In this document: positions 28,753 to 50,820 of the stretch, piece after piece | How the letters are laid out: each line of letters starts with the position of its first letter | Position numbering within the stretch: the stretch's first letter is position 1 | Made by a program: the position numbers and the translations under genes | Notes under the pieces: model-generated | What the model was told of the DNA's origin: nothing | What the model saw: the letters and a program-made list of their open reading frames with translations, nothing else | The model's database searches: none | Assembly (NCBI RefSeq): GCF_002844235.1 | Contig: NZ_PGTS01000002.1 | Coordinates: forward strand, 496,001 to 560,000 | Direction of reading: 5' to 3' | Length of the DNA stretch: 64,000 bases | Origin: Thalassospira povalilytica | GTDB taxonomy: Bacteria; Pseudomonadota; Alphaproteobacteria; Rhodospirillales; Thalassospiraceae

Positions 28753-29531
28753 CCAAAATAACCATTCTTGGCTGCGGATCATCAAATGGCGTGCCATCCG
28801 TTGGCCTTGGATGGGGAAAGTGCGACCCGAACAATCCGAAAAACCGCCGTTTACGCAGTTCTATCCTGATCGAAGAAGCCGGGAAAAAGATCCTTGTCGA
28901 TGTCACCCCGGACTTCCGTGAACAGGCGATCCGCCATAACATTGACCATCTTGACGCGATCCTGTTCACGCATTCACATGCCGATCACGTGCACGGGATT
29001 GATGATGTTCGCTGGCTCAATGTGGCGATGAACCGGCCGATAGATATCTATGCCTCGGCCGAGACGATCTCTGATATCGACCATCGCTTCAATTATGTCT
29101 TTACGCCGTTGCCTGACGGGGTTGAGTTCTATTTCAAACCGGTCCTGATACCGCACGTCATCACAGGGCCGTTGGTCGCAGCAGGGGTCCCGATAACCGT
29201 TTTCTCGCAGGATCACGGCTATGGCGAAACCCTTGGCTTCAAGATCGGGAAATTTGCCTATTCGACGGATGTCGTGAATTTCCCCGAGCAATCCAAACAG
29301 CATCTTTATGATCTTGATGTGTGGGTCGTCGATTGTTTGCGCCACCGACCACACAACACGCATGCGCACCTTGAAAAGCTGCTGGGCTGGGTTGAAGAAT
29401 TCAAACCCAAAAAGGTCTACATGACCCATATGGGTATTCAGTTCGATTACGCACAGGCGATGGCCGACACACCGAACCATGTTGAACCGGCTTATGACGG
29501 CTTATCCATTACAGTAAATGAGAAATATTAG
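28749..29531 (+). CDS. MBL-fold metallo-hydrolase, PhnP-like
   Basis: This 260-residue metallo-beta-lactamase-fold protein has the zinc motif FTHSHADHVHGIDD (about residues 76-89), GCGSSNGVPSVG at the N-terminus and the later ligands ...STDVVNF and YMTHMGIQFDY. The GCGSS/GVP start resembles PhnP-type phosphodiesterases, which hydrolyse cyclic phosphate esters; without phn genes here the substrate is open. The GTG start overlaps the tatD stop as GTGA. It is the last gene of the GC-rich core block; composition changes immediately after its stop. Confidence 0.9.
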   Translation: MTKITILGCGSSNGVPSVGLGWGKCDPNNPKNRRLRSSILIEEAGKKILVDVTPDFREQAIRHNIDHLDAILFTHSHADHVHGIDDVRWLNVAMNRPIDIYASAETISDIDHRFNYVFTPLPDGVEFYFKPVLIPHVITGPLVAAGVPITVFSQDHGYGETLGFKIGKFAYSTDVVNFPEQSKQHLYDLDVWVVDCLRHRPHNTHAHLEKLLGWVEEFKPKKVYMTHMGIQFDYAQAMADTPNHVEPAYDGLSITVNEKY

Positions 29532-29556
29532 TGCTGATAGTGGAGCATGGGAATGT

Positions 29557-31113
29557 ATGGAATTACAATTACATAATTTCAATACGGAAAAAGTTAAGTT
29601 AACATATCGATTTTTTTATCGAATACCACGCATCATATCAATGAGACTAAATGTGAAAAAGTCCCCACAAGAGCATAATTACTTTCACATATATAGCAGG
29701 CGCAGGCTTGCTATTCGTGACATCATGATATTATCTGATGGTGTATTGTTTTTGCTATCAGCTTTAACATCATATTACTTACGGTTTGGGGAAATCGGAA
29801 GTTCATTTTCGATGTATTCATATATTATTCCAATATGGATGCTATATTTTTTGTTTATGCTATCTTCACGGGCGTACACTAGATTAGATTTGAGTATTCT
29901 TCGGTTTGGCATTGTGCGACTAACCGCAGCTACAATATTTTCGTTCTCAGTATTTTTTTCTGTAGCTTATTTCACCAAATCATCGGCTGAAATCTCTCGA
30001 TTATGGATGGGATACAACATTGCGATTTGTTTAACCCTGCTAACAACATATCGATTTATTTTTGGTTATGCCCTTTATAGAACGGGATTATTGGACAAGA
30101 TAAAGCCTGCATTTGCAGTAGTTTACAGCAAGTCCTATTCTAATTTCTTAAAATTTGTCGATTCACAAGCAATTTCCCATCGAATTAATATTGTTAAAAA
30201 AATTGAAACTCCATTTGATCGAAAACACCCGACTGAACTGCGAAAGTTTGAGGAACAAATATATCAGTTAAGGCGGTCAGTTCCTGATGTCTTGATATTT
30301 GCGCTTTCAGATCAGGACAGAGAGCAATTTTCTGATCACATTGTAACGCTGTCGGCCATGCCTTCGGAGATATTGGAGTTTTCAACTCTATCCGCAGATG
30401 CATCTAACTTGGACTTCTGCAGCACGAACAGCAACTCCAATAAGTTTCGGGAATGGGTGATAGTTGCCGGGCTACCATTTGTTCGCATTGCAGTGAAACC
30501 TCTTTCGGCCAGAGCTTGGTGGATAAAACGCTTAGAAGATATTGTTTTAGGCACAATCCTGTTGATTTTGTTGTCGCCCGTAATGATGGTTATAGCGCTG
30601 TGCATTAAAGCAACAAGCCCTGGACCTGTTTTATTCCGGCAACTACGGCACGGGTTTAACGGCGACGAAATCCAAATTCTCAAATTCCGCTCAATGTATG
30701 CGCGCAGTTGTGACACAGACGTATCTGGGCAAATTGTGCAGGCACGGAGAAATGATCCTCGCGTCACAAAATTTGGGTCTTTCATCAGACGAACAAGCCT
30801 CGACGAATTGCCTCAGCTGATAAATGTCCTCAAAGGAGAGATGTCTCTCGTCGGCCCTAGGCCACACGCGACAGCCCAATATGAACTCTACCAGGGAAAA
30901 GTTGACACCTATTTTTCAAGGCACCGGGTACGCCCCGGCATCACTGGATGGGCGCAAGTAAATGGATGGAGAGGTGAAACTGATACCGACGAAAAAATCC
31001 AGCAGCGGATTGCATGCGATCTGTATTATATTCGCCACTGGTCAATTTGGTTCGATTTGCGCATTCTGTTTTTGACTATGTTGTCAGTTCTCTCAAACAA
31101 GAACGCCTTTTGA
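29557..31113 (+). CDS. Undecaprenyl-phosphate sugar-1-phosphate transferase (WcaJ/ExoY type)
   Basis: This inner-membrane enzyme starts glycan synthesis by moving a sugar 1-phosphate from a nucleotide sugar to undecaprenyl phosphate. About four or five N-terminal helices (starting near DIMILSDGVLFLLSALTSYY), a variable cytoplasmic middle domain and the C-terminal transferase domain are present; the last shows KRLEDIVLGTILLILLSPVM, GPVLFRQLRHGFNG, KFRSM, RRTSLDELPQLINVLKGEMS and the LVGPRPH box. ATG at 29557 follows GGAG at about 11 bases; the frame is open from 29518 and another ATG is at 29641, so the N-terminus is uncertain. It opens the AT-rich polysaccharide region and is followed by a terminator. 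Confidence 0.93.
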   Translation: MELQLHNFNTEKVKLTYRFFYRIPRIISMRLNVKKSPQEHNYFHIYSRRRLAIRDIMILSDGVLFLLSALTSYYLRFGEIGSSFSMYSYIIPIWMLYFLFMLSSRAYTRLDLSILRFGIVRLTAATIFSFSVFFSVAYFTKSSAEISRLWMGYNIAICLTLLTTYRFIFGYALYRTGLLDKIKPAFAVVYSKSYSNFLKFVDSQAISHRINIVKKIETPFDRKHPTELRKFEEQIYQLRRSVPDVLIFALSDQDREQFSDHIVTLSAMPSEILEFSTLSADASNLDFCSTNSNSNKFREWVIVAGLPFVRIAVKPLSARAWWIKRLEDIVLGTILLILLSPVMMVIALCIKATSPGPVLFRQLRHGFNGDEIQILKFRSMYARSCDTDVSGQIVQARRNDPRVTKFGSFIRRTSLDELPQLINVLKGEMSLVGPRPHATAQYELYQGKVDTYFSRHRVRPGITGWAQVNGWRGETDTDEKIQQRIACDLYYIRHWSIWFDLRILFLTMLSVLSNKNAF

Positions 31114-31184: not shown

Positions 31185-32399
31185 TCAAGAAAACTGCGAG
31201 AGAGTCTTTCTTAAAATCTGCGCCTGTTCCTCTGCGTCATCCCAGTTCCAGTAATTGGTTTTAAATTGGAAGAGTTTTGGCTGAACCATCTCTGCATTTG
31301 GACATAATCCTGGACCAAACTTCTGATATATACCTTTGTACGCGGGGTGGGTTAACGGGCATCCATTGGCAAACATCGGCTCCATATAGCTAAGTTTCCA
31401 GGCTGCATAGACGCCATCTCCGCCATTTGCCAAAAAGGCATCACGGAATTCATGCCAGCTGACATCGGGATGCTCAAGTTTGGCGACGAACGTCCAGTAG
31501 CTGTTGGTGCAATTAGAAGGAGTCTTTTGAGAAACAAACCATTGGTATTGTGCTGTAACCTCATTAAACAGGTTGCCAACATCTATGCGTCGCTGCACCA
31601 ATTCATCAATGCGCTCTAACTGAGCCAACGCTACTGCCGCACACAATTCTGGCATGCGGTAATTGAACCCGGTCGACACGTGACGGGAGTAGGCGGGATC
31701 CTGAATATCGGTTTTGGTGATTTTACCTTTACGCGAACCCACACCGGCATACCCTAAACTATTGAAGCGGCGAATGCTGTTTGCAAGTGCTTCGTCGTTG
31801 GTGAGGATCATTCCTCCTTCACCAGCAGTAAGATGCTTGGAACTCTGAAAGCTGAAACTTGAGACATGCCCTACTGTTCCAATTTTGCGACCTTTGTAAG
31901 TATTGGTAATAGCCTCCGCATCATCCTCAATAACAATGAGATCATGCTCTTTCGCAATTTGCATGATGGCATCCATGTCCGGCGATAATCCGTACAGTGC
32001 AACGGGAATAATTGCTTTGGTGCGCTCAGTGACCCGTTCACGAATACTCATCGGGTCAATCTGAAATGTATCCGGGTCCACATCCGCAAAAACCGGAACC
32101 GCATGGGCTTGAAGGACGACAAAGGTAGTTGAGGACATAGTCAGTGGTGGCACAATGACTTCGTCTCCGGGCCCGACACCTGCCGCCTCAAGCGCTGCGT
32201 GCATGGTGCAAGTGCCATTCATGAATGAAATGGCAAACTCCATTCCATGATAGTCCGCAAAAGCTCTTTCTAAGCGTGTGCAAAACTCTGAGCCTTTGGA
32301 AGTTTCAAAGCCATAATCCAGACATTGCATTACATAACGGCGCTCAAGATCGGTAACACGTGAGATAACGCGCTTCTTTGGGGCGGGGTAGGAGAACAT
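31185..32399 (-). CDS. DegT/DnrJ/EryC1/StrS-family aminotransferase
   Basis: This PLP enzyme of 404 residues belongs to the sugar aminotransferase family that aminates keto-sugar nucleotides. The PLP lysine is K188 in SFQSSKHLTAGEGGM, with the ring-contacting acid in VIEDDAEA (about 157-159) and the FMNGTCTMHAAL phosphate-binding start. The ATG at 32399 overlaps the stop of the preceding cytidylyltransferase gene; a TTG sits just before it. In the context of the two cytidylyltransferases it may supply the amino group of a nonulosonic-acid precursor (PseC/LegC-like role), but the specific sugar is not determined. Confidence 0.9.
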   Translation of the reverse strand: MFSYPAPKKRVISRVTDLERRYVMQCLDYGFETSKGSEFCTRLERAFADYHGMEFAISFMNGTCTMHAALEAAGVGPGDEVIVPPLTMSSTTFVVLQAHAVPVFADVDPDTFQIDPMSIRERVTERTKAIIPVALYGLSPDMDAIMQIAKEHDLIVIEDDAEAITNTYKGRKIGTVGHVSSFSFQSSKHLTAGEGGMILTNDEALANSIRRFNSLGYAGVGSRKGKITKTDIQDPAYSRHVSTGFNYRMPELCAAVALAQLERIDELVQRRIDVGNLFNEVTAQYQWFVSQKTPSNCTNSYWTFVAKLEHPDVSWHEFRDAFLANGGDGVYAAWKLSYMEPMFANGCPLTHPAYKGIYQKFGPGLCPNAEMVQPKLFQFKTNYWNWDDAEEQAQILRKTLSQFS

Positions 32400-33175
32400 C
32401 AACTATTACCTGTGTCTGAAAGATAAAGGGAGGAGCGGACAACGTTTGAATTTAAGGCTCTGATCTCCGGTTTCTGTTCTAACAGGTCTAAAATTTCTTG
32501 CATTCGGGGCATTGAATTATCCGAAAAATGTGAAAACACTTCCGTAAAGAAGTCCATGTCTTTCTCTGTATCCAAGGTCCAGCGATTACCTGACAAATCT
32601 GGCGTACCGTGCAGGCTATGGCAGCGAAACTCGTGAGAGTTATGATAGAAGTACGGGGTTACATGTTCACGCTCATACGGGCTGATCGACAGCTCATCAG
32701 CACGCAACAATGCTTGAATTGAGACGATTTCACTATCTTGTCCCTCTGGCAACCAAGGTGGCTGATTGTTACATACGTAATCCCAGGTGCCCGGAAGTTT
32801 TATGAACTCTTTAATGACAGCACCCATAACTGACGGGTCTTTTACGGGATCATCGGCGGTTAACCGTACAACCGCACCAGAATCCCACTCTTCTTCTGGT
32901 ATCAAAGCTCTAGTCGCACCGGCAAATCGGCTCAAAACATCGGCCTCAGAACCGCGATAAACCAACACGCCCTGGCTGTTTAAAAAGTTTTCAAGCACAT
33001 CGTCTTCTGCAGAATTCGAGATTGCCACAATAATTCTATCGATTAGATCCACGGCTCTGACTCGATCTATCAAATGCAGAACAACTGGCTTCCCTGCGAG
33101 TTGCATAAGCGTTTTCCCCGGCAGGCGGGTAGACCTCATGCGCGCCTGAATGATTGCTGTAATATTATTGCTCAT
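32399..33175 (-). CDS. SpsF-like cytidylyltransferase family protein
   Basis: The 258-residue protein has the nucleotidyltransferase Rossmann start IIQARMRSTRLPGKTLMQLAG (residues 8-28) and VVRLTADDPVKDPSVM, as in SpsF-type proteins related to CMP-sugar and KDO cytidylyltransferases. Such genes are often paired with a DegT aminotransferase and a NeuB/SpsE synthase. The neighbouring gene at 33249 is closer to true CMP-nonulosonate synthetases, so the two may act at different steps or on different sugars. It overlaps the aminotransferase start by one base. Confidence 0.85.
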   Translation of the reverse strand: MSNNITAIIQARMRSTRLPGKTLMQLAGKPVVLHLIDRVRAVDLIDRIIVAISNSAEDDVLENFLNSQGVLVYRGSEADVLSRFAGATRALIPEEEWDSGAVVRLTADDPVKDPSVMGAVIKEFIKLPGTWDYVCNNQPPWLPEGQDSEIVSIQALLRADELSISPYEREHVTPYFYHNSHEFRCHSLHGTPDLSGNRWTLDTEKDMDFFTEVFSHFSDNSMPRMQEILDLLEQKPEIRALNSNVVRSSLYLSDTGNS

Positions 33176-33248
33176 AAAATTTCTTTATAATAAACAACAA
33201 TTGCACCTACTTTATCGGTGATTGTAATGGAGGATATTAATTGAATAA

Positions 33249-33977
33249 TTATATATGATATTTTTTATCATATCTTTGATTATGAATACGTAATTTTTCT
33301 TCCGCAACCTCCAAGTCTTCCATGGTATCGATGTCTATAACATTATTTCTATTCAACAACTTCATTCGAACGTGTGAATTGGTAAGAATCTTCCCTTTTC
33401 TGACCGCGCCTGCTCGACTAATCGAGAATTGACCGGCATCATGCTTTGATTCTACAAGATCCTGAGAACGTGAATGAAAATATTGCGGTTGGAACATCTC
33501 TGCATACCCATCAGCATTTTCAAAAACGGCACGCTGAACTGGATACGGAAATGTGCACGCAGAAAGAACTGAGTCGCAGAGCTTGTCACGTCGGAGCATC
33601 TCAAAAGCATCCAAAATGTCATCGATTAGCAGCATTACAGCAGTTGGATAAACTGCAAGTACATAGTCCACACGCTTGACATTTTTCTCAAACCATTCAA
33701 GCGCATGTGTTATGACAGGAACTGTGCCTGTATGATCATCCGACAAGTGCACCGGCCGACGCAAGGGGACGCGCAATCCCAGCTCTTCAACCGCCTCAGC
33801 AATTTCATCTGAATCGGTGGAAACCAGAATTTCCTCTGGAGTAAAAATTTTGCGCAATTCCATTATTGGCCAATAAATCATTGGCTGCCCTAATATGGGA
33901 TGAATATTCTTTTTAGGTATGCGCTTGCTGTTGCCCCGGGCTGGCAATACTACCAAAATATTTTCAATATTTTTCAT
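33249..33977 (-). CDS. pseF: CMP-nonulosonate cytidylyltransferase, PseF-like
   Basis: This 242-residue enzyme should activate a nine-carbon acidic sugar with CTP. The N-terminal signature is VVLPARGNSKRIPKKNIHPILGQPMI (in sections at residues 9-34), then VSTDSDEIAEAVEELG, the PseF-like RPVHLSDDHTGTVPVI and, near the C-terminus, NNVIDIDTMEDLEVAE. The TGT-VPV pattern favours pseudaminic-acid cytidylyltransferase over NeuA. It sits 73 bases upstream of the SpsF-like gene. The last codons include an AT hairpin (33254-33272). The symbol is an assignment by similarity from memory. Confidence 0.82.
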   Translation of the reverse strand: MKNIENILVVLPARGNSKRIPKKNIHPILGQPMIYWPIMELRKIFTPEEILVSTDSDEIAEAVEELGLRVPLRRPVHLSDDHTGTVPVITHALEWFEKNVKRVDYVLAVYPTAVMLLIDDILDAFEMLRRDKLCDSVLSACTFPYPVQRAVFENADGYAEMFQPQYFHSRSQDLVESKHDAGQFSISRAGAVRKGKILTNSHVRMKLLNRNNVIDIDTMEDLEVAEEKLRIHNQRYDKKYHI

Positions 33978-34137
33978 TTGACTTTGTCTTCATATAGTCC
34001 CGTGTTTTGATCGGAAAGCAACTAATCCCGCATGTGCGGCAAATATGAAATCGCCTAAACGAGGGAAAGCCGCAGGATCTACAAGCATGACTTCGCTGGT
34101 TGGATTACTTTAAAATCACCTTACAATTATCGAGAAC

Positions 34138-35454
34138 TCACGCCTTTGAGGTATGTTTTTCAACTAAGACCTTCAAACATTGTAATGGCGTAGGAAGGGC
34201 ATTCGAAGAAGAAGGTCGCTCAATATCTATATGCTGCTCCAGACGCATATTTCGAAGTTCAGCAAACGATTTCACAACAGAAATTGCAGGGAAAACTCCC
34301 ATTTCATCTCCACCCTCCACACCAAAAATATCCAGGCTCACGACTGGACAACCTTCTAAGCGACTAGCCCATATCAGAACGCTTGAAACATCACCAACGA
34401 CCAGTGCCGCTGACACCATCATTTCTTCTGCACCCATTTTCCCTGTTTTAGAGACAAATCCCGGAATCCTAGCTTGTAGTCTATCAGTTAATCCCATCAT
34501 CGTTGGGTCATCGACAAACCCCGGATGTAACTTCCACCAGATATCCAACCCTCCCGACTTTTGCTTCAAAATCTCCAAGGCAGGGCCCCAAGCTGCTTCT
34601 AGACGGTTGATCTGCTCTTCAACTGTGTCCGAGTTTCCGTATTCGAGACACGATGAGGGCAAAGCTACAATAACTTTCTTGCAATGTTTTGCTGGAAACA
34701 ACGCCTCCACCGCAGCGGGTGATAGACTCATCGGGTGTTGCACAAGATAAATCTTATCGCTTTCGTGCATTTCCATCAAATATCCCTGTTGCTCGGACTG
34801 CGTGTAGCACAAAACAGCATCGAACAAATCCGCTGTATTCTTCGTGCGAAGCTTTCCAAGCCATGGATTATGTGTTTCGGTCAAAGGGCGCTGACCATTT
34901 AGCATAGGGAAAAGGAAAAAGTCTCGGATACCGATCCAGCGTCCCCATAATTCATATGTCACGTTTGCAATTAGCGCGGGAACCCAAAACCAGCGTGCCC
35001 GCCATTTGCATAGACTTGCCTCTCTAAGACGATAATCAGTAGTTTCAAAGTCGGTGATAGGAACGTGAACGCTAAGGCAAATCACAATTATAGTATTAGG
35101 CAGCAAGCGACGAACAGATCGTGAAATATATTTTTGATGAAATGCGTGCCAATTATTCATCAAGACAATAGACGGTTTAACTTCCTGCAAGACGTGCGGA
35201 AACGTAGAACAAAACCAACGATGTACTGCAAAGCGGCGGCTCCGCGATGGCAACACGACAAGCCTTTTGATACACCCTGAATCCAAAAGTATTTTGATAG
35301 AGCTGGAGTTTTTATCTTTTTCTTCGACCATAACAACAAGGTCATAGATTTTAGATAAGTACCAACAATAAAAATACCCTGCATTTAGGAAAGAATGAAA
35401 TGAAAATGTATCAAGAAGAATAGCCTGACGAGAAGATGACTCAGTGGAGCACAT
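34138..35454 (-). CDS. Putative GT-B glycosyltransferase, possible nonulosonate transferase
   Basis: I do not recognise a characterised family for this 438-residue protein. It has no signal peptide or clear membrane helix. The C-terminal half looks like a GT-B nucleotide-sugar domain related to CDP-glycerol and polysialyltransferase-type enzymes: IWWKLHPGF near residue 318, then LVVGDVSSVLIWASRLEGCPVVSLDIFG near 370-397, where the DVSS-x-L-x-x-A pattern is typical. It lies between a PseF-like gene and a flippase gene, which makes transfer of a CMP-activated nonulosonic acid a reasonable guess. The base composition is AT-rich like its neighbours. No SD is visible before the ATG at 35454. Confidence 0.6.
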   Translation of the reverse strand: MCSTESSSRQAILLDTFSFHSFLNAGYFYCWYLSKIYDLVVMVEEKDKNSSSIKILLDSGCIKRLVVLPSRSRRFAVHRWFCSTFPHVLQEVKPSIVLMNNWHAFHQKYISRSVRRLLPNTIIVICLSVHVPITDFETTDYRLREASLCKWRARWFWVPALIANVTYELWGRWIGIRDFFLFPMLNGQRPLTETHNPWLGKLRTKNTADLFDAVLCYTQSEQQGYLMEMHESDKIYLVQHPMSLSPAAVEALFPAKHCKKVIVALPSSCLEYGNSDTVEEQINRLEAAWGPALEILKQKSGGLDIWWKLHPGFVDDPTMMGLTDRLQARIPGFVSKTGKMGAEEMMVSAALVVGDVSSVLIWASRLEGCPVVSLDIFGVEGGDEMGVFPAISVVKSFAELRNMRLEQHIDIERPSSSNALPTPLQCLKVLVEKHTSKA

Positions 35455-35523
35455 GATCTAGACCCAAAAAATTATAGATATCAAAGTAATATGATTTTTT
35501 GTAAATTTGTGTTTTTCAATCCA

Positions 35524-37107
35524 CTACAATTCATTTTGACGACTTTTCGGGGGGCATTCATCAATTTCCTTGCTGCGCTGGAAGCTGGAAAACACTAGCT
35601 CCAAGTCGGCTTTGGAGAGCCCACCGGCAAAGAACAAGGCTATGAAATATACGACAGCACCAAGCGCAACTTTCGAAGCTAAGAAAAGTTCACTTTCTAG
35701 TTTAATGCCCCCAGGGCTGTACCCGGCAAACCAAAGCGTAATTGCCATAACGAACGAAGCAAAAAAAACGCAAAATATGGTTGAAACGTCAAACGTAAAC
35801 ACAAATGTAGCTCGGACAGCCGAAAGCGCATAAGCAAACGCTACACCGTATGACGCAATAGAAATAGCGGCGGGCACGCTAACGTTTGGATACACTTGCA
35901 GGAAAACGAGGTTGAGCAGGATATTAACTGTTACGGCAACAATGTTGGCATAAATAATAATTTTTGTATGTCGGATGACAAATGCAGCACTAGAAATCAG
36001 GATAACAAATCCGTAGAAAAATATTCCCACTGAAATCAAGGCTACTGCCCATCTTCCAGATTCTGCTATTGATGGAGTTGTCAGCACAGCAATAAGAGAC
36101 GGACCAACCAATAGAGTGCCGACAACAAACGGTACTCCAATAATTATGTAAAAACGGACCGCCTGAAAAAACAACTGCTCCGCCGCATAAATGTTTTTAG
36201 TGTCCCAGAGCTTGCAGAGGGCAGGGGTGAGAACAGTTGAAATTACCTTTGGAAAAAAAGTCAGCAAACCTGCAAGTGCATAAGCTGCCTGATATTGTCC
36301 GACAGCTGAAACGGTGAGGAAAAGACCTATAAGATAACGATCTCCAAATGCAACCAAGAAGTCGACGAGAAACTCACCATTAATTGGTAAGCCAAGCTTT
36401 GCTCCTGCCCAAAATTTCTTCCAATCGGTGCTTGGCCACGAAACTCCAGTCTCACGGATTACACCCCAAACAAATGCGGGCACAGAAAATACAATGAGGG
36501 TTATCGCTTGTAGTGCAATCAGTTGATCCAAACTCAAACTGTTCCACCAAAAACTCAGCCCAACGATTGCAGCAATGTGTAAGTAAATTTGCCCAACCAT
36601 AAGAAGGTTATACACGCCGAACCGAGATGTATATCGGTAGTAGTCAGTGACAATTTCTTGAATCGTCATCCCTAGGAGCCATAATGCTAAAAGACCTGGA
36701 GAAAATGGCACGTCTTGATTCAAGAAAGCAAAAATTTCTGGCGTTATGACAATTATGATTAAAGAAAATATTGCAGTAGTTAGAGCACGAAATGAAATCG
36801 ACGACATAAGTAGTTCTCGTCGATCGTCATAGGTATTTGCCGCCGGCAAATCTCTGCGAAAATTATAATTTGTTCCAAATGACGATGTTCCCAAAAGCAA
36901 AATGATGATTGATGATATGAGCACATACGACCCAAACACGGAATCACCGGCAGATTTGATGATTAATGGCATAATAATCAAACCGCGAAACCCTATAAGA
37001 ATCTGTGTTATTGCCCCCAACAATATCTGTTTTGCTATGGACCGACCAACCGACACGACAACTCCTGGATTTTTTCTTAAAAATATCAGATGTCGAAGAT
37101 ATGACAT
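35524..37107 (-). CDS. Polysaccharide flippase (Wzx/MOP superfamily)
   Basis: The 527-residue protein has about 12-14 hydrophobic segments with the layout of Wzx-like oligosaccharide translocases (for example FRGLIIMPLIIKSAGDSVFG, the YLIGLFLTVSAVGQYQAAYA helix, and FFPKVISTVLTPALCKLW). It would flip lipid-linked repeat units across the inner membrane. It is the most upstream gene of the leftward arm that includes the putative transferase and the PseF-like gene, divergent from the nonulosonate-synthase arm. The product ends in a short hydrophilic tail (KEIDECPPKSRQ). Confidence 0.9.
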   Translation of the reverse strand: MSYLRHLIFLRKNPGVVVSVGRSIAKQILLGAITQILIGFRGLIIMPLIIKSAGDSVFGSYVLISSIIILLLGTSSFGTNYNFRRDLPAANTYDDRRELLMSSISFRALTTAIFSLIIIVITPEIFAFLNQDVPFSPGLLALWLLGMTIQEIVTDYYRYTSRFGVYNLLMVGQIYLHIAAIVGLSFWWNSLSLDQLIALQAITLIVFSVPAFVWGVIRETGVSWPSTDWKKFWAGAKLGLPINGEFLVDFLVAFGDRYLIGLFLTVSAVGQYQAAYALAGLLTFFPKVISTVLTPALCKLWDTKNIYAAEQLFFQAVRFYIIIGVPFVVGTLLVGPSLIAVLTTPSIAESGRWAVALISVGIFFYGFVILISSAAFVIRHTKIIIYANIVAVTVNILLNLVFLQVYPNVSVPAAISIASYGVAFAYALSAVRATFVFTFDVSTIFCVFFASFVMAITLWFAGYSPGGIKLESELFLASKVALGAVVYFIALFFAGGLSKADLELVFSSFQRSKEIDECPPKSRQNEL

Positions 37108-37857
37108 GCTAAATGCACAATTCGACAGTACGAGTATCCGAATGTTTCACCGCATCCCCGTAGTCACGACTGAGGAAATAATACATTTCCTATGCATTAA
37201 TTAACTTTTCCTCATAACAAAATCTGAATTTAAACAAACAATAACTCAGATAGAAATTCCGGCACGCATAACATATTAGACAAACACAAAAGAAAGCCGT
37301 CAATTTAAGGTTTATTTTTCATAATTCAATTTGAACAGAAAAGACATGAACCGATTTTAACAAATACCTGATTGATTGCTATTTGCGTTTCTCGCCTATG
37401 ATGTGCTAATTGTCCACCACTTCGTGCCGATATCCTGAATAATTTACTGAGCAGAGCCACTTACCTGTACATTCACGCCGATGAATTGATTGACCCAACC
37501 TGTAAGATTCGTGCGCACTCTCACCGGGTAAAATGGAAGAAATTTTACACGTTGAATCGACGTCAATGAACCATACAGTACCTATATCTCACCAAGCTAA
37601 TTTTGGCGCCAGTGATGCAGCCGTTAGATAACCCGATTTCTATGGTGGACATCACGAACAAAGATAAAATACACCAAGTAATATGTGATTATTGATATAT
37701 CGAGATTGGACGATTCACCAGAATCATAAAGTTTATAAATTACATGCACCCAAATTGGCACCTGACATCGATGGCACGCTGTATTTCAATCACGTCAGTC
37801 CTCGTTCAGACGTGATTATATCTTTAAAGACGGCTATCAGTGTAGTTGGACTGCTTG
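37108..37857. other. 750-base AT-rich divergent intergenic region
   Basis: This gap separates the flippase gene (leftward) from the reductase gene (rightward) and should hold both promoters. Short frames exist, the longest reaching 66 codons near 37692-37892, but it overlaps the reductase gene, has no SD and resembles nothing known to me. No inverted repeats with T-runs and no JUMPstart-like element were found. It may contain a long leader or the remains of a decayed gene. Confidence 0.5.
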
Positions 37858-38841
37858 ATGAAAATGGTCAAAATGGTACTGCCCGAACATAACGCACAAT
37901 TAGCTGGTCCCGTAATAATAACAGGTGCAGCAGGAGCTCTTGGTTACTACTTTTGTTCCGCTTGGGCACAAAATGGCTTAGCAGGTACACATCTTGTACC
38001 TTCAGCCCGCAGGCAGAAATATCGGCTTGGCGGCTTAACGACAAAAGGCCAATTCCTTGGGGCAATGGAAGAAGTAGACCTTGCCGACCAGCAAGCGACG
38101 GAAAACATGATTGAACGCCATAGGCCCAGCGTAGTGATTCACTGTGCGGCCTTGAGTGATGTTGATCTGTGTGAAAGCAATCGGAACATAGCATTTCGGG
38201 ATAATGTTGAGGCGACGCGATCAGTTGTTGCTGCCTTAAAGCGGCATACCCCCAAATGCCATCTGATTCATATTTCAACAGATCAAGTATATTGCGACGG
38301 CGGAGGCCAAAGAGGGAAAATTGGTCCGGTCAATCTATATGGATGGACAAAATTGTGGAGTGAAGATATTGCAAAACAACATAACCATACGACCATCCTC
38401 CGCCTTAATTATGTCGGACGAGGAACTCCTGACCGCCCGGGATTGGTTAGCTGGCTAATCAACAGTCTTCGTGCAGAAGCACCAGTTACATTGTTCCAAG
38501 ACGTTCTGTTTAATCCGTGCCACGGGACGGTCGTAGCTAAAGTAACGGAAGCGATAATTGCGCAAAAAATTTATGGGACCTTTAACCTAGGTGCTCATGA
38601 CACCCCAATTTCGAAAGCAGAATTCTTACTAAGACTGGCAAATCTACTTCGCTTGCCAACAGAAACGGCGCAGCTTGGGTTCTTGAATGACTTTCCGCTG
38701 AAGGCTCCCCGGTGCCTCGACATGAGTATGAGTGTCTCCGAGATCGAATTACTGTTGGGAATCAAGATGCCCTCAATTCAAGATACCTTGCTTGCCCTCG
38801 TTAAGGAGTGGCAGGGAAAGGAGGGGCCTGATGAACAGTAA
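37858..38841 (+). CDS. RmlD-like NAD(P)-dependent sugar-nucleotide reductase (SDR)
   Basis: This extended short-chain dehydrogenase of about 327 residues has the cofactor loop IITGAAGALGYYF, the VVIHCAALSDVDLCESN stretch, HISTDQVY (catalytic Ser/Thr) and the Y-x-x-x-K active site as YGWTK. These features resemble RmlD-type 4-keto reductases. The exact start is unsure: ATG codons occur at 37858 and 37864, without a strong SD. It is first in a rightward run that ends with a NeuB-family synthase, so it probably acts on a sugar nucleotide feeding the same glycan. It overlaps the PIG-L gene by 11 bases. Confidence 0.85.
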   Translation: MKMVKMVLPEHNAQLAGPVIITGAAGALGYYFCSAWAQNGLAGTHLVPSARRQKYRLGGLTTKGQFLGAMEEVDLADQQATENMIERHRPSVVIHCAALSDVDLCESNRNIAFRDNVEATRSVVAALKRHTPKCHLIHISTDQVYCDGGGQRGKIGPVNLYGWTKLWSEDIAKQHNHTTILRLNYVGRGTPDRPGLVSWLINSLRAEAPVTLFQDVLFNPCHGTVVAKVTEAIIAQKIYGTFNLGAHDTPISKAEFLLRLANLLRLPTETAQLGFLNDFPLKAPRCLDMSMSVSEIELLLGIKMPSIQDTLLALVKEWQGKEGPDEQ

Positions 38842-39532
38842 CGACAGGGTTCTAGTAATCGCAGCCCATCCTGATGACGAGGTACTTGGTTGCGGGGGTA
38901 CCATAGCCCGATACCGGGCCGAAGGATGCGATGTGAGAGTCGTTTTCATGGCTGAAGGGATTACTGCTCGCTTTTCTCCGAGCGAATTTGACACTGATGC
39001 AGTCAAAGAAAAGTCGGCCAAACGCAATGCGGATGCTTTGGAGGCGATGACGGTTTTAGGAGTGAATACAGATCAAGTTTTTTTGTCAGAGCGCCATTGT
39101 TGTCGACTTGATCAAGTTCCATTGATTGAACTGACAAAGCAAATTGAAGACCACATTCGAGAGTTTTCTCCAACACACATGTTCACTCACGCCCCCGATG
39201 ACCCAAACATTGATCATGTAACGGTTCATAAAGCTGTGTTGCCTGCTATTCGTCCAATCAAAGGTCAGCATCTAAGAGGTGTTTTCGCGTTCGAGGTCTT
39301 ATCAAGCACCGAATGGAACCCCTTGAAACCCTACGCTCCAACTGTATTCCAGGATATTACGGATAGCATCACGCAAAAGATCGCTGCGATGCAAAAGTAC
39401 GAAAGTGAAATCCATCCTCCTCCACATCCTAGATCTCCGGAGGTTTTGCAGGCACTGGCTAGGTTTAGAGGTGCGCAAGCTGGACTGGACTATGCTGAAG
39501 GTTTTGTATTGATTCGCGGAATAAATTTGTGA
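38831..39532 (+). CDS. PIG-L (LmbE-like) family N-deacetylase
   Basis: This 233-residue zinc hydrolase belongs to the PIG-L family, which removes N-acetyl groups from GlcNAc-type sugars. The motif AAHPDDEVLGCGG (H13, D15, D16) and the later HAPDDPNIDHVTVHKAV (D..H) supply the metal ligands. AAGGAGG at 38817-38823, seven bases upstream, fixes the ATG at 38831 although the frame is open further left. It overlaps the reductase gene upstream and the PseG-like gene downstream, so one transcript is nearly certain. In a nonulosonate context it could expose an amino group for another acyl substituent; that is inference. Confidence 0.88.
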   Translation: MNSNDRVLVIAAHPDDEVLGCGGTIARYRAEGCDVRVVFMAEGITARFSPSEFDTDAVKEKSAKRNADALEAMTVLGVNTDQVFLSERHCCRLDQVPLIELTKQIEDHIREFSPTHMFTHAPDDPNIDHVTVHKAVLPAIRPIKGQHLRGVFAFEVLSSTEWNPLKPYAPTVFQDITDSITQKIAAMQKYESEIHPPPHPRSPEVLQALARFRGAQAGLDYAEGFVLIRGINL

Positions 39533-40581
39533 AGGCGTGGCCATCGATTCTTATTCGATGTGATGCAGGACGAGACCACGGGCTCGGGCACCTGATGCGC
39601 TGCTTGACGCTTGCCGAATCCCTGAGGGCACAGGGAGCTATGAACATAAAATTCATGGTTCAGGCTTCATCCAGAATCTTACAGCGTATCTATGACTCCG
39701 GCTTTTCTGTGCTGGACGCTCGGTTCGTGACTGGTACCAAGGAAAGCTGTGCCGAGATTTTGGACTGGAACCACCAGAATTGCCAGAATGATCCGATACG
39801 TCCGTGGATTGTAATTGATGGAAAATACGCCAGCCCAAGCTCTGTTGAGCCGTTGTCACATATAGCAAATGTTATTTGCTTTGATGATTTTCCTTATCGA
39901 GATTTTCCAGTCCCCGTGATTGTCAACGCACAGCCGTGGACGACAGAGCTGGACTATCCTCAACATGCCGACAGGCAAATACTTTCAGGCGGGCGCTTTA
40001 ACTCCATTCATCCTCGGTATTTTGAAGCTGCAAAAATTGAAAACCGGCAAGCTATTCTCATCACAATGGGCGGAGAAGATCCTCAAAATGACACAGCATG
40101 GATAGCCAACTCTTTGGGCGACATGCTAACCGGCTATCCCGTTATTGTAGCCATTGGTCCATCCCATCCCGACCAACTTGAAGCAGTTAACGCGATAAAC
40201 CAGCATATTCCGCAAGCAGAGATTCTGTATGCCCCTTCATCTCTTACATTAGCAGCAGAGCGTTCGTTTTTGGCTATATCAGCTGGTGGAACCAGTTGCT
40301 ACGAGCTACAAGCGGCAGGTATCGCAGTTGCCGCATTGGCAGTTGAACACCACCAGCTAGAATTCATAAATGCGCTAGAGAGGTTGGGGGGAATTGTTTC
40401 AATAGGGGGTCCGCAAAAGTCTTCCGACGAACGCGATAGCGGGCCTGCTCGACGCATTGTGCAACGCTTTCTTTATCATTCCGCCTGGAGAGAAGAACGC
40501 ATCGAGCGTGGAAAAGCAATGTTTCCCGCTCCTGGCGGGCCATATCTGGCACAACGTTTAGCGGACATTTTGCTAAAATGA
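39529..40581 (+). CDS. pseG: PseG-like UDP-sugar hydrolase
   Basis: PseG removes UDP from UDP-2,4-diacetamido-2,4,6-trideoxy-L-altrose before condensation with PEP; SpsG is a relative. The 350-residue protein has the family start IRCDAGRDHGLGHLMRCLTLAESL (in sections, residues 8-31), a central IVIDGKYASPS, ICFDDFPYRD, ITMGGEDPQND and the C-terminal AISAGGTSCYELQAAGI, all in GT-B order. The GTG start overlaps the PIG-L stop, and its own stop overlaps the next gene (ATGA). No fused PseH acetyltransferase is present, unlike some PseG proteins. Confidence 0.85.
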   Translation: MKAWPSILIRCDAGRDHGLGHLMRCLTLAESLRAQGAMNIKFMVQASSRILQRIYDSGFSVLDARFVTGTKESCAEILDWNHQNCQNDPIRPWIVIDGKYASPSSVEPLSHIANVICFDDFPYRDFPVPVIVNAQPWTTELDYPQHADRQILSGGRFNSIHPRYFEAAKIENRQAILITMGGEDPQNDTAWIANSLGDMLTGYPVIVAIGPSHPDQLEAVNAINQHIPQAEILYAPSSLTLAAERSFLAISAGGTSCYELQAAGIAVAALAVEHHQLEFINALERLGGIVSIGGPQKSSDERDSGPARRIVQRFLYHSAWREERIERGKAMFPAPGGPYLAQRLADILLK

Positions 40582-41513
40582 CTATCGGCACGCATCGCCT
40601 TGTTTTAGGAACGGCGCAGTTGGGAATGCAGTATGGAATTGCGAACGCAACCGGCATTCCTGACAGGAATGCCGCTGTGGATATAGTTCTTGCCGCCTTA
40701 CGGGCGGGAGTAAACACGCTGGATACAGCTCATTGCTATGGCGATGCAGAATCCATCTTGAGGGATGCTTTGGCATTGGCTGTGCAGGAAGGTCTTCCTA
40801 TCCCACGAGTCATTACAAAACTGGATACACCACTTGCTGAAGAAGCTGAACAATTAAGTGATAAGGAAACAATACAGTTTGTAAAACAAGGCGTGATTTC
40901 ATCTTGTCGCGCTCTTGGTCTTGAGCAACTTCCTGTATTGTTGATACGTGAATCTTGGCCTCTGATGAGGCCAACGATGTTCTGGGAAACTTTGTTAACC
41001 TTACGCGAACAGGGTTTAATTCACACCTTGGGTTTGTCAGCACAATCCCCCGCTGAGGTACAATTAGCCCTAAAATTTCCCGATATTAGGCACCTACAAG
41101 TTCCAATTAATATTTTGGATCATCGTTGGCGAAATAGTGATGTGTTCGCCCAAATTAGTGTCCGCGGCGATCTGACAGTACATGCTCGATCTGTCTTTTT
41201 GCAGGGGCTCTTGTTGGCCGGAAACAATTCACTGTGGCCGGATGTATCGCAAGGGTGCGGACCTGATGTTATCCATGCTATGCTCAAAGCTAAACAGATG
41301 CTGAACCGCAGCTCTTTGGCTGATCTATGCACAGCCTATGTATTGAGCTATCCGCAAATATCTGGTGTCGTTCTTGGCTTGGAAACCGCCGAACAACTCG
41401 AAGAAAATCTGCGTCTCGTCACGACGCCAGCTCTCAGTAATGCTGAAAGAAAATTTGTAGATGACATAATTCCCTATGTTCCTTCTGCATTATTAAACCC
41501 CAGCTCCTGGTAA
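40578..41513 (+). CDS. Aldo/keto reductase family protein
   Basis: The 311-residue protein is an AKR barrel: LVLGTAQLGMQYGIAN at the N-terminus, NTLDTAHCYGDAE (catalytic Asp and Tyr), KLDTP with the catalytic Lys position, and LGLSAQSPAEVQLAL. Such AKRs are repeatedly found beside NeuB/SpsE-type genes, but no defined reaction is known to me for this branch. Its start overlaps the PseG-like stop. It is followed by a 129-base gap containing two hairpins before the synthase gene. Confidence 0.87.
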   Translation: MTIGTHRLVLGTAQLGMQYGIANATGIPDRNAAVDIVLAALRAGVNTLDTAHCYGDAESILRDALALAVQEGLPIPRVITKLDTPLAEEAEQLSDKETIQFVKQGVISSCRALGLEQLPVLLIRESWPLMRPTMFWETLLTLREQGLIHTLGLSAQSPAEVQLALKFPDIRHLQVPINILDHRWRNSDVFAQISVRGDLTVHARSVFLQGLLLAGNNSLWPDVSQGCGPDVIHAMLKAKQMLNRSSLADLCTAYVLSYPQISGVVLGLETAEQLEENLRLVTTPALSNAERKFVDDIIPYVPSALLNPSSW

Positions 41514-41542
41514 TTAATTCCTCTAATCAAGTGGTGGTCAGC

Positions 41543-41604
41543 TTTGAGGCACAGTGTTATGTTCCGCCTCAAATTTGACGGCGTTCCGGCGAGATATGCC
41601 GGAA
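41543..41604 (+). promoter_or_regulatory. Tandem hairpins in the leader of the nonulosonate synthase gene
   Basis: TTTGAGGC (41543-41550) pairs with GCCTCAAA (41566-41573), and TTCCGGC (41584-41590) pairs with GCCGGAA (41598-41604) across seven bases. Neither is followed by a proper T-run. The ribosome site of the synthase gene comes about 25 bases after the second stem. Attenuation or mRNA processing are possible. Confidence 0.4.
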
Positions 41605-41642
41605 TGAGCTAACACATTAATTTGACAGAAAGGGCAGGGCGC

Positions 41643-42707
41643 ATGGCCGCGCAGATGAAAATCGGTGAACGGTTAATTGGCGACAATTCTCCAGTGTTCG
41701 TGATGGCTGAAGCCGGCGCGAACCACAATGGCGAACTGGAAATGGCCAAGAAGTTGATAGATGTTGCCAAAAATGCCGGCGCTGATTGTGTGAAGTTCCA
41801 AACATTTACGGCCGCCGAATTTTGCGCTGACGCGACGAAGACCTTCACCTATTTCAGTCAAGGAAAGCAGGTCACAGAAAGTGAGTACGAAATGTTCCGT
41901 CGCCTGGAGTTCACTCGGAACGAATGGGCAGAAATTATTTCATATTGTGACCAACAGAAAATTATGTTCCTGACGACAGTTCAGGATCCAGTAAATCTCG
42001 AAATGATGCAGGAATTGGGACTGCAAGCCATTAAAGTCGGTTCAGATGACTTCGATCATCTACCAAACCTGAGGTTTTTTGCCAGCAGCGGCTTACCTTT
42101 GATTATCTCCAAGGGGATGGCAGACTGCGATGAAGTCGATAAAGTCGTAAACGACCTGAAAGCGCGGTGCGAGAACTTTGGCGTTCTGCATTGTGTATCC
42201 CTTTACCCGTCAGATCCGGAACACCTTAATCTTGCGCAAATTCCTGTACTGAAAACCCGTCATCCTGACGTTGTGTGGGGTTTTTCTGATCATAGTCGCT
42301 CCACGATTGCGCCAGCACTCGCGGTAACATTGGGAGCTCGCATTATCGAAAAACACTTCACACTTGATCACGATCTCCCAGGGCCCGACCATTGGTTTTC
42401 TATGAACCCGCAAGAATTGACCGAAATGGTTTCTCACATTCGTTTTGCAGAAGCGGCACTTGGAAGCAATGCGATCAAACCACACACTGACGAAGAAAAA
42501 AGCCGAAAAATCATGCGGCGGCGGATTATTGCAAGCAACGCCCTTCAGGCAGGTACAGTGTTGAGCGATCTTTCAGTATCGTTCAAGCGTGCCGATTATG
42601 GCGCCTATGTTGGAGAATGGGATAACATATGTGGCCGAACGTTGCTGACCGATAAGGCTGCCGGAGAGGGCATTTCCATTGATGATCTGGAGCCATTGGG
42701 TGCGTAA
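41643..42707 (+). CDS. NeuB-family nonulosonic acid synthase
   Basis: NeuB-family enzymes condense PEP with a six-carbon amino sugar to give a nine-carbon acid such as neuraminic, legionaminic or pseudaminic acid. The 354-residue product has the barrel start FVMAEAGANHNGELEMAKKLID, DCVKFQTFTA, HCVSLYPSDPEHLNL, WGFSDHSR, IEKHFTLDHDLPGPDHWFSM and a C-terminal SAF (antifreeze-like) domain, RRRIIASNALQAGTVLSDLS. The AGGGCAGGG before ATG 41643 supports this start over the TTG at 41622. With PseF- and PseG-like genes nearby a pseudaminate-type product is likely, but NeuB subfamilies cannot be separated safely by eye. Confidence 0.9.
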   Translation: MAAQMKIGERLIGDNSPVFVMAEAGANHNGELEMAKKLIDVAKNAGADCVKFQTFTAAEFCADATKTFTYFSQGKQVTESEYEMFRRLEFTRNEWAEIISYCDQQKIMFLTTVQDPVNLEMMQELGLQAIKVGSDDFDHLPNLRFFASSGLPLIISKGMADCDEVDKVVNDLKARCENFGVLHCVSLYPSDPEHLNLAQIPVLKTRHPDVVWGFSDHSRSTIAPALAVTLGARIIEKHFTLDHDLPGPDHWFSMNPQELTEMVSHIRFAEAALGSNAIKPHTDEEKSRKIMRRRIIASNALQAGTVLSDLSVSFKRADYGAYVGEWDNICGRTLLTDKAAGEGISIDDLEPLGA

Positions 42708-43390
42708 TGATCGTCTCCATTCACCAGCCTGCCTATCTGCCGTGGCTCGGATATTTCGACAAGATTCAGAAGTCAGATTTGTTTTTGTATCTTGATACCG
42801 TGCAATTTCAGAAAGGTAGCTTTCAAAACCGCAACAAATTGCGCACCAAAGGCGGATGGGTTTGGCAAACCGTCCCAGTTCAGACTAAGGGAATTCTGTA
42901 CGAACATTCAATTTCGGAAATAGAAATTGATAACCGTCAACCTTGGCAAGCCAAGCACTGGGCAACGATCAAGCAGAATTACAGCAAGGCACCGTTTTCT
43001 TCCGAATGGCTCACACTGTTAGAACCATTTTATCATACTTCATATGACTGCTTCAGTGACCTGTGCTGGGACATGCTGCTCATGTTTAATAAGGCATTGG
43101 GGATATCCACGCCAATGCAGAAGACATCCGAGATGACTCCTGTTGATGGGGCCAAAAGCGACCTTATTCTAAACTTGTGTCGCCAGAGCAACGCAAGAAC
43201 ATATTTATCGGGAAGTCAGGGCCGCGGATATCTTGATGAAGATACCTTTGCAAAGTTCGATATTGCAGTTGTTTACCAAGATTTTAGCCACCCTATCTAT
43301 ACGCAATGCCATGGTGGTTTTGAACCCAATATGGGGATCATCGACCTTCTGATGAATGCTCCAGATCCCTCCGGTTTACTAAAGGTATAG
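42707..43390 (+). CDS. WbqC family protein
   Basis: The 227-residue protein matches WbqC: it begins IVSIHQPAYLPWLGYFDKI, then FLYLDTVQFQKGSFQNRNKL, with YLSGSQGRGYLDE and a VVYQDFSHPIYTQ stretch near the end. WbqC genes occur in O-antigen loci but their reaction is not established; an acyltransferase-like role has been suggested. The ATG overlaps the synthase stop (TAATG), so the two are coupled. Confidence 0.9.
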   Translation: MIVSIHQPAYLPWLGYFDKIQKSDLFLYLDTVQFQKGSFQNRNKLRTKGGWVWQTVPVQTKGILYEHSISEIEIDNRQPWQAKHWATIKQNYSKAPFSSEWLTLLEPFYHTSYDCFSDLCWDMLLMFNKALGISTPMQKTSEMTPVDGAKSDLILNLCRQSNARTYLSGSQGRGYLDEDTFAKFDIAVVYQDFSHPIYTQCHGGFEPNMGIIDLLMNAPDPSGLLKV

Positions 43391-43394
43391 TTCG

Positions 43395-44060
43395 ATGTCA
43401 TTTTCATCTGAGTGGGAAGATATTTACGCAGCAGGGGCCCATCACAGTGTATGGCCCTGGAGTGAATTAATCTCATTAATTATGAGACATGCAGCGCCCT
43501 ACAAAAGCCAAACACCTTGTCGTGTTCTGGAAATTGGTTGTGGAGTGGGCGCCAACATCCCCCTTGTGCACTGGTTTGGTGGTGAGTTCTGGGGCATTGA
43601 TAACAGCTCTTCAGCACTAGAAAGCATCAAGAGCCGCTTCGGAAAGAAGGTGAAACTTGCGCAAGCAGATTTTTGTGCAGAAATTCCGTTTGCTGGACCT
43701 TTCGACCTTGTTATCGATCGCGCATCGTTAACACATAACCCGACACTTGGTATTCAGCATAGCCTTGAAATGATCGAGGAGCGCCTTGCTCCCGGTGGAA
43801 TATTCGTTGGAGTTCACTGGTTCTCGAAGGACTCAGATGATTTTACAAGGGGCATTCCATCAGAATATCCCGACGTACGGAAGGGCTATAAAGATGGCCC
43901 GTTTGCAGAAGTCGGCCTCGTTCATTTCTTTGATCGGGATAAAATTGAAAGTCTTTTTTCTAACTTTACTATCGAAGTTCTGGATCACGTGGTCAGTGAA
44001 TCATATACCCCAAAACCAGAGCGACTTGCCTGGTGGAACATTGTTGCAAAGAAGAAGTAA
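43395..44060 (+). CDS. Class I SAM-dependent methyltransferase
   Basis: The 221-residue protein has a Rossmann methyltransferase core: VLEIGCGVGANIPLVHWF (motif I, about residues 38-55), FWGIDNSSSALESIKSRFG, and FDLVIDRASLTHNPT. It starts four bases after the WbqC stop. Its place at the end of the synthase run suggests methylation of the nonulosonate or its glycan, or of an acyl substituent; no sequence feature fixes the acceptor. Confidence 0.87.
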   Translation: MSFSSEWEDIYAAGAHHSVWPWSELISLIMRHAAPYKSQTPCRVLEIGCGVGANIPLVHWFGGEFWGIDNSSSALESIKSRFGKKVKLAQADFCAEIPFAGPFDLVIDRASLTHNPTLGIQHSLEMIEERLAPGGIFVGVHWFSKDSDDFTRGIPSEYPDVRKGYKDGPFAEVGLVHFFDRDKIESLFSNFTIEVLDHVVSESYTPKPERLAWWNIVAKKK

Positions 44061-47205: not shown

Positions 47206-47246
47206 TTGTTAGAGCTATACAATCGGATTTTTATTTTTAAAAAAAA

Positions 47247-47453
47247 TTATTTTCCAGCTAACTTTTTTACAAGTTTCCGCACGCCGATTACAAGAAACTT
47301 CCAGGAAAATGCAACTATACCAATTATTGGAGTCAATATTTGAACAATAAGGCTTCCCGTATTTGGATCGATATAGGCCATCGCCGGAGTTGACACAGAG
47401 GACGCCAGGATCAACGCTAAAGATATTAATTTAATTTCCGGTAAGAACTTCAT
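47247..47453 (-). CDS. Small YIDP-motif secreted or membrane protein
   Basis: The 68-residue product starts with a signal-like helix (MKFLPEIKLISLALILASSV, probable cleavage after AMA) followed directly by YIDPNTGSLIVQILTPIIG, then a second hydrophobic helix and a basic tail (RKLVKKLAGK). Proteins with AYIDPGTGS next to a signal peptide recur in surface-polysaccharide loci, but I know of no defined function. In-frame ATGs at 47459 and 47543 are alternative starts. It is alone on the minus strand between plus-strand genes. Confidence 0.7.
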   Translation of the reverse strand: MKFLPEIKLISLALILASSVSTPAMAYIDPNTGSLIVQILTPIIGIVAFSWKFLVIGVRKLVKKLAGK

Positions 47454-47647
47454 GCACATCTTCTGTCGATCACGAATTAATCCCGATAAGCCATGACTGA
47501 ACTTTATCAAGGATGGTCGGACATGAAAATAGCTATTGAACAAGCTAATGTCCGCGAATAACTTGAATCCTGCCTTTTAAAAAATCATATCATATCTCTA
47601 CAAGCCACCCAAATAAACAAAAGTAATCACCACTGAAAATCATCATT

Positions 47648-49875: not shown

Positions 49876-49893
49876 GATATTTTTTTAAGTAAC

Positions 49894-50712: not shown

Positions 50713-50820
50713 GAAAAACCTTTAATTCCCGCAAGAAAATCCAAAACAATAAAAAGTTCCGAGCAAAGCCAACAAACCAAACACACCAAAGCCAATAGGC
50801 ATCGCGGCAATTGGATGATA

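Follow-up and report, generated by a model that had tools for sequence, protein, structure and literature searches.

How a sialic-acid-like sugar could be made from an incomplete set of pseudaminic acid (Pse) genes is the question raised by a locus of Thalassospira povalilytica (assembly GCF_002844235.1, genome G000), which lies in a stretch of 64,000 nucleotides (contig NZ_PGTS01000002.1, positions 496,001–560,000), hereafter the window. A preliminary description had noted here a nonulosonic-acid-like module with a NeuB-family synthase and a PseG-like hydrolase but neither the PseB dehydratase nor the PseH acetyltransferase, and had proposed that either the early steps are encoded elsewhere or the pathway is a variant. 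Each proposal holds in part. The early step PseB is indeed encoded elsewhere, as are a PseC, a PseH-like protein and a PseI, but the module most likely has no need of PseC and PseH, whose absence would then be no gap. What sets the variant apart is an RmlD-type reductase where related clusters have PseC plus an N-acyltransferase, together with a separate NeuB clade. We propose, with moderate confidence, that this is a new variant of nonulosonate biosynthesis, the product of which is probably a sialic-acid-like sugar with one nitrogen replaced by oxygen.

The RmlD-like gene and the NeuB clade

A NeuB scan of named genomes yielded 80 loci, the best of a longer match list and none of them from Fusobacterium, and NeuB proteins were placed in a tree of 114 rows built with a quick method and rooted at the midpoint. 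Five NeuB proteins encoded near an RmlD-like gene (RmlD-type loci: three from Thalassospira including the window, L016 from genome G258 of the same class, and L102 from a Pelagibacteraceae metagenome-assembled genome) formed one clade (SH-aLRT 100) nested in a clade of 22 rows (99), and the second NeuB of L016 lay elsewhere in the tree. The L051 and L110 rows were identical and one was dropped, leaving 21 loci in the wider clade. PseC (at least 300 bits) was found in 12 of them and the RmlD-like gene in 5, with no locus containing both and 4 containing neither (L106, and L111, L112 and L114, these three on 5–12 kb contigs or cut at one end). An acyltransferase of the hexapeptide, GNAT or formyl type (at least 35 bits) accompanied PseC in 10 of the 12 loci but none of the 5 RmlD-type loci (one-sided Fisher test computed by hand, 21/6188 = 0.0034), in a search that would miss an unlike acyltransferase. 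The exceptions were L108, with a 24-bit GNAT match, and L109, which is cut off close behind NeuB. In keeping with the reported absence of PseH, the same three types of query had no match at window positions 25001–52000. In the PseC-type clusters L103, L104, L105, L106, L107, L110, L113, L114 and L123, a hexapeptide-repeat acyltransferase of approximately 150 amino acids stands where PseH is expected, adjoining neuB in most of them.

PseB produces UDP-2-acetamido-2,6-dideoxy-L-arabino-4-hexulose (UDP, uridine diphosphate), PseC makes an amine from such a ketone and PseH acetylates that amine. A C4 hydroxyl makes both PseC and PseH superfluous, so that an RmlD-like gene without an N-acyltransferase is what chemistry predicts. 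By analogy, dehydration followed by 4-reduction would be an ordinary step, as it is on other sugars, for instance with the Pdeg and Preq pair described for UDP-N-acetylquinovosamine (PMC4514872). We rejected the window protein as a substitute dehydratase: its motif, TDQ...YGWTK, retains Yx3K, yet Gln occupies the position at which Lys or Glu is described for UDP-GlcNAc 4,6-dehydratases (PMC8987622), and Lys is present at that position in the three PseB proteins compared. A function as the RmlD of rhamnose synthesis is also unlikely, with genes read as RmlB, RmlD, RmlA and RmlC just outside the window (L013) and a score of 100.9 bits against a cut-off of 224.05.

We searched for PseB in the window and found none over the cut-off, as the preliminary description had indicated, and tblastn at E 10 detected no remnant between position 37000 and the RmlD-like gene. 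The only PseB over the cut-off in the genome is at C1:404414-405385 (516.9 bits, cut-off 407.75). In L016 and L102, an intact PseB gene stands immediately ahead of the RmlD-like gene, and the T. lohafexi locus has a decayed fragment of PseB (L077:13682-14146, G659:C4; 44% identity over 66 residues) directly upstream of it. PseB over the cut-off occurs in 7 of 29 genus genomes, including all 3 that carry the module (probability 0.0096 if genomes were independent, although they are relatives); in the two other carriers it is in loci of different gene content.

Organization and conservation of the locus

The genes are listed below by window position. Their positions agree with the preliminary description from the DegT gene through the methyltransferase gene, and Pfam and NCBIfam searches bore out its families (NeuB, PseG-like, PseF-like, SpsF-like, DegT, RmlD-like, PIG-L, aldo/keto reductase (AKR), WbqC and methyltransferase); it had overlooked the flippase and the 438-aa protein. 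None of the nonulosonate proteins of the window reaches the NCBIfam cut-off for the models it matches.

29518..31113, plus: initiating sugar transferase at the locus edge (PF02397, 229.1 bits)
31185..32402, minus: DegT-family aminotransferase (PF01041, 292.4 bits; PseC model 205.3 against a cut-off of 423.5; LegC model 223.2 against 420)
32399..33175, minus: SpsF-like (SpsF/KdsB-like) cytidylyltransferase, proposed CMP-sugar synthetase of the module (CMP, cytidine monophosphate; PF02348, 90.2 bits)
33249..33977, minus: PseF-like cytidylyltransferase (TIGR03584, 203.6 bits against 205.7)
34138..35454, minus: 438-aa protein without a match in Pfam, NCBIfam or PHROG, possibly, as a guess, a glycosyltransferase
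35524..37107, minus: MatE-type flippase (PF01554, 25.9 bits)
37846..38841, plus: RmlD-like protein, proposed 4-ketoreductase, start codon uncertain (TIGR01214, 100.9 bits against 224.05)
38831..39532, plus: PIG-L deacetylase (PF02585, 90.9 bits; top NCBIfam model BshB1, 64.8 against 182.5)
39529..40581, plus: PseG-like UDP-sugar hydrolase (TIGR03590, 109.4 bits against 153.55)
40578..41513, plus: AKR (PF00248, 87.4 bits)
41622..42707, plus: NeuB-family synthase, start codon uncertain (PF03102, 251.1 bits, plus SAF domain; TIGR03569, 319.7 against 399.65; TIGR03586, 224.1 against 340.25)
42707..43390, plus: WbqC (PF08889, 245.7 bits, gathering cut-off 21.3)
43395..44060, plus: class I S-adenosylmethionine (SAM) methyltransferase (PF13649, 45.5 bits)

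The module consists of two divergent gene groups separated by 738 bases, one on the minus strand (flippase to DegT) and one on the plus strand (RmlD-like to methyltransferase). The plus-strand genes are as closely packed as had been described, overlapping by 1–11 bases (the first three by 4–11) or lying 4 bases apart, except for a gap of 108–141 bases ahead of neuB that depends on the start codon. The G+C content is 0.51–0.56 up to 28 kb of the window and 0.39–0.48 from 30 to 48 kb. We read the module as the part of a surface polysaccharide locus that makes a nonulosonic acid, within an overall explanation in which our confidence is evenly divided. Two sulfatase-superfamily proteins, three sulfotransferases and one GDPD-family protein are encoded after the module (44145-52526), and given these genes the polysaccharide may be sulfated or contain phosphodiesters.

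NeuB at 77–78% identity was found in 2 of the 28 other genus genomes searched (G659, T. lohafexi, and G660), and both share a neighborhood of initiating transferase, degT, spsF, flippase, rmlD-like, pigL, pseG, neuB, wbqC, methyltransferase, sulfatase-family protein and sulfotransferase genes. Among the three Thalassospira loci, the proteins are 47–88% identical at only 32–43% identity in third codon positions, and from this comparison we infer that the module proteins are kept by selection; synonymous rates were saturated and undefined in all comparisons but one. Decay of the locus was ruled out, as the frames are open in all three genomes despite that third-position divergence. SpsF is retained in both other loci, and PseF had no match at 1e-30 in the stretches fetched from them. 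The core also occurs in L016 and L102. The gene set is rare. With PseG as the probe, matches at 1e-20 came from 2 of the 289 genomes of the class and matches at 1e-12 from 10 of the 398 of the phylum, each count including the T. povalilytica genome, and the nine other phylum loci all contained NeuB and PseG, eight with a DegT match, but never an RmlD-like match above 23 bits. A PIG-L probe found 12 of 398 phylum genomes, including our own; NeuB was present in 7 of the nine loci fetched, an RmlD-like gene in none at 1e-5. RmlD-like had no match on plasmids at 1e-20.

Canonical pathways and other roles for the module genes

We compared the module with the established routes. The Pse pathway shares with it PseB (elsewhere in the genome), a PseG-like hydrolase, a NeuB-family synthase and a PseF-like cytidylyltransferase, but the module has the RmlD-like reductase instead of PseC and PseH, and its NeuB and PseG are under the PseI and PseG cut-offs (NeuB, 224.1 bits against 340.25 for PseI). 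A true PseC is encoded at C1:454085-455269 (473.3 bits); the window DegT reaches 205.3 of 423.5 bits. Against N-acetylneuraminic acid synthesis, NeuB scores 319.7 of 399.65 bits with the NnaB model and no NeuC match was found in the locus; against legionaminic acid synthesis, DegT scores 223.2 of 420 bits with the LegC family. NeuB and PseG did not fall into families with other known substrates: NeuB clades with proteins of nonulosonate clusters, and each of the two scores below the curated cut-off of every NCBIfam nonulosonate model it matches. A PDB search with the PseG sequence gave no match at 0.001.

The genome encodes three NeuB proteins (window, C1 and C7). That on C7 is a true PseI (490.3 bits, cut-off 340.25), and the search for PseH that the preliminary description had called for gave a PseH-like GNAT near it (42.7 bits, cut-off 93.1). 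The C1 NeuB lies within 20 kb of PseB and a WbuX-type amidotransferase (333 bits, cut-off 203.2). The window could merely supply PseG and PseF to a canonical Pse pathway scattered over C1 (PseB, PseC) and C7 (PseH-like, PseI), its other genes being unrelated or idle: PseB, PseC and PseI are over their cut-offs, and the only strong PseG match of the genome is the window protein (next best, 19.4 bits). However, 3 of the 6 genus genomes with PseI over the cut-off (G616, G668 and G674) have no PseG match at 1e-5, so the canonical route runs there without a recognizable PseG and another hydrolase may serve, and the module NeuB, RmlD-like and PIG-L genes recur as a conserved unit. We therefore find the scattered pathway quite unlikely.

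Two features of these contigs are recorded separately. A second nonulosonate locus (L011:2373-19147; G000:C1:404372-421146) contains PseB, the WbuX-type amidotransferase, a methyltransferase and NeuB, with other genes read as HisH-like, HisF-like, SpsF, PtmA-like short-chain dehydrogenase/reductase, aldehyde dehydrogenase and NeuA-like, which together look like a pathway for an acetamidino sugar. On C7 (L012:2058-5676), the 3' part (214 aa) of a complete GMP synthase gene is repeated approximately 1.3 kb beyond that gene, ahead of a stretch that contains glycan genes such as PseI; this looks like an element inserted at the guaA 3' end.

The DegT gene suggests another product. If its protein replaced PseC on the PseB product, with the RmlD-like protein and the AKR building or reducing a side chain, a 5,7-diamino acid would be formed. 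DegT is within the locus, is its best conserved gene (86–88% identity among the Thalassospira loci) and matches the LegC and PseC models along most of their length. Its scores with both models are nevertheless those given above, in the PDB it is closest to perosamine synthetases (209 bits, against 94.6 for Helicobacter pylori 2fn6, which we take to be PseC), a DegT-type match is absent in L016 and only 126 bits and outside the gene row in L102, and none of the five RmlD-type loci has an N-acyltransferase. The Bacillus subtilis sps set for spore crust legionaminic acid is comparable, with SpsE, SpsF, SpsG and the DegT protein SpsC, but it has an acetyltransferase, SpsD, and no RmlD-like protein, PIG-L or WbqC is named in the part of that account available (PMC7439481). 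Altogether, a diamino product appears unlikely. SpsF is needed for sugar transfer in the B. subtilis spore crust (PMC7439481), and leaning on this analogy we propose that the window SpsF serves the module as its CMP-sugar synthetase. Fusions in L102, L107 and a Pse-type cluster of Vibrio B9-25K2 (PMC7371886) tie SpsF and AKR to each other; the Vibrio cluster resembles the module in having both domains, but it has PseC and PseH, and in the window the two are separate genes. Alignment of the AKR proteins showed Arg in the window and T. lohafexi where five others have His, presumably the catalytic His.

PIG-L, WbqC and the proposed product

WbqC is a 227-aa protein over the PF08889 gathering score, the predicted fold of which has a class I synthetase-like core as in BshC. 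PIG-L has HPDDE and HxxxH-type motifs. WbqC and PIG-L occur together in nonulosonate clusters of several phyla, on a plasmid and in phages, and among the 80 NeuB loci listed, methyltransferase relatives of at least 100 bits were found only alongside WbqC. Of seven WbqC neighborhoods fetched outside NeuB loci (chosen from 35 plasmid and 6 phage records), two had PIG-L adjacent, four listed no PIG-L but had a DegT-type aminotransferase less than 5 kb away, and one, sparsely annotated, showed neither. The WbqC model had five matches to viral proteins at 0.001, all without names. The IMG/VR viral contigs L195, L205 and L265 carry NeuB, WbqC and PIG-L, two of them also a hexapeptide acyltransferase.

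In the literature collection searched we found no described function for WbqC (PF08889), which no title or abstract names, and no paper linking a PIG-L deacetylase to pseudaminic acid or WbqC to flagellar glycosylation. The flagellin of Clostridium botulinum reportedly carries N-methylglutamyl legionaminic acid. In bacillithiol and N-methyl-bacillithiol synthesis, a PIG-L-family deacetylase (BshB), BshC and a SAM methyltransferase (NmbA) act sequentially on a sugar amine (PMC4360819, PMC12719100), and by this analogy the group on the remaining nitrogen of the predicted sugar is probably swapped in the same manner; the sugar, acyl group and pathway differ, and WbqC has 227 aa against 540 for BshC. 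Tentatively, and at somewhat less than even confidence, we suggest that WbqC is related to BshC and to class I aminoacyl-tRNA synthetases but more compact, and that it ligates an activated amino acid or comparable carboxylate to amines on sugars. In this reading PIG-L, WbqC and the methyltransferase would form a portable deacetylate–ligate–methylate cassette with the logic of BshB/BshC/NmbA, acting here on a 7-hydroxy (fusaminic-type) acid whose route swaps PseC and PseH for one reductase. The WbqC–BshC link, drawn from a predicted fold, is the boldest part of this reading.

The reactions, like the stereochemistry, acyl group, methyl position and step order, are deduced from gene content, gene order, recurrence, the NeuB clade and the WbqC fold prediction. 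The RmlD-like protein would reduce the C4 ketone of the PseB product to a hydroxyl (L-altro or L-ido hexose), making PseC and an N-acyltransferase dispensable; the PseG-like protein would remove UDP from the reduced sugar; and NeuB would add three carbons from phosphoenolpyruvate to the free 2-acetamido-2,6-dideoxy-L-hexose. Activation to the CMP sugar would fall to SpsF, and in the window perhaps to PseF too. The predicted product is a 5-amino-3,5,9-trideoxy nonulosonic acid with a C7 hydroxyl (the 5-acetamido form straight after NeuB). The amine freed by PIG-L would be N5 or its precursor; WbqC would acylate that amine with a carboxylate, probably of an amino acid, and the group so added would be methylated by the methyltransferase. 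For this whole scheme, from the RmlD-like route to the N5 modification, we see the chances as balanced.

The predicted constitution (3,5,9-trideoxy, 7-hydroxy) is that of trideoxy fusaminic acid, a structure known from Fusobacterium nucleatum ATCC 25586 and tentatively assigned as L-glycero-L-gluco (PMC13014188, PMC7371886). Its C5 carries an acetimidoyl group; in place of an amidotransferase, the window encodes PIG-L, WbqC and a methyltransferase. The O-chain of this strain also contains 2-acetamido-2,6-dideoxy-L-altrose (L-6dAltNAc) as a hexose (PMC13014188), and by our own Fischer bookkeeping C5–C8 of fusaminic acid correspond to L-6dAltNAc, and a route of this kind would therefore fit it as well. 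The hexose itself raises the alternative that the UDP-6-deoxy-L-AltNAc made by PseB and the RmlD-like protein goes into the polysaccharide repeat and not to NeuB, with PIG-L and WbqC decorating that hexose. This appears very unlikely, since the NeuB clade tracks the RmlD-like gene, and PseG and NeuB share a gene group with it in all five RmlD-type loci (divergent in L016).

Several findings weigh against the nonulosonate scheme and its cassette. PseB is outside the window and canonical Pse genes elsewhere allow other readings; DegT, the best conserved gene, is without a place in the scheme; and the G660 locus lacks AKR. L102 has the RmlD-like gene and PIG-L but no recognized WbqC or related methyltransferase, and L016 also lacks a related methyltransferase. 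The queries for the acyltransferase count came from five of the ten loci that scored positive, and a single genus accounts for three of the five RmlD-type loci. For WbqC, Foldseek gave no significant PDB match, the profile comparison with BshC was not significant, and the activity of BshC itself had not been shown in vitro as of 2015 (PMC4360819). By sequence, WbqC matched no NCBIfam family at 1e-5, the curated BshC family included, and had no PDB match at E 1.

If the scheme is correct, it would explain at the level of genes how trideoxy 7-hydroxy nonulosonic acids can be made, a structure known from Fusobacterium for which the available parts of the sources name no genes. It would also give WbqC a testable function and tie the decoration of surface sugars to bacillithiol chemistry, and it would mean that predictions of sialic-acid-like sugars based on NeuB and PseG name the wrong sugar for such loci.

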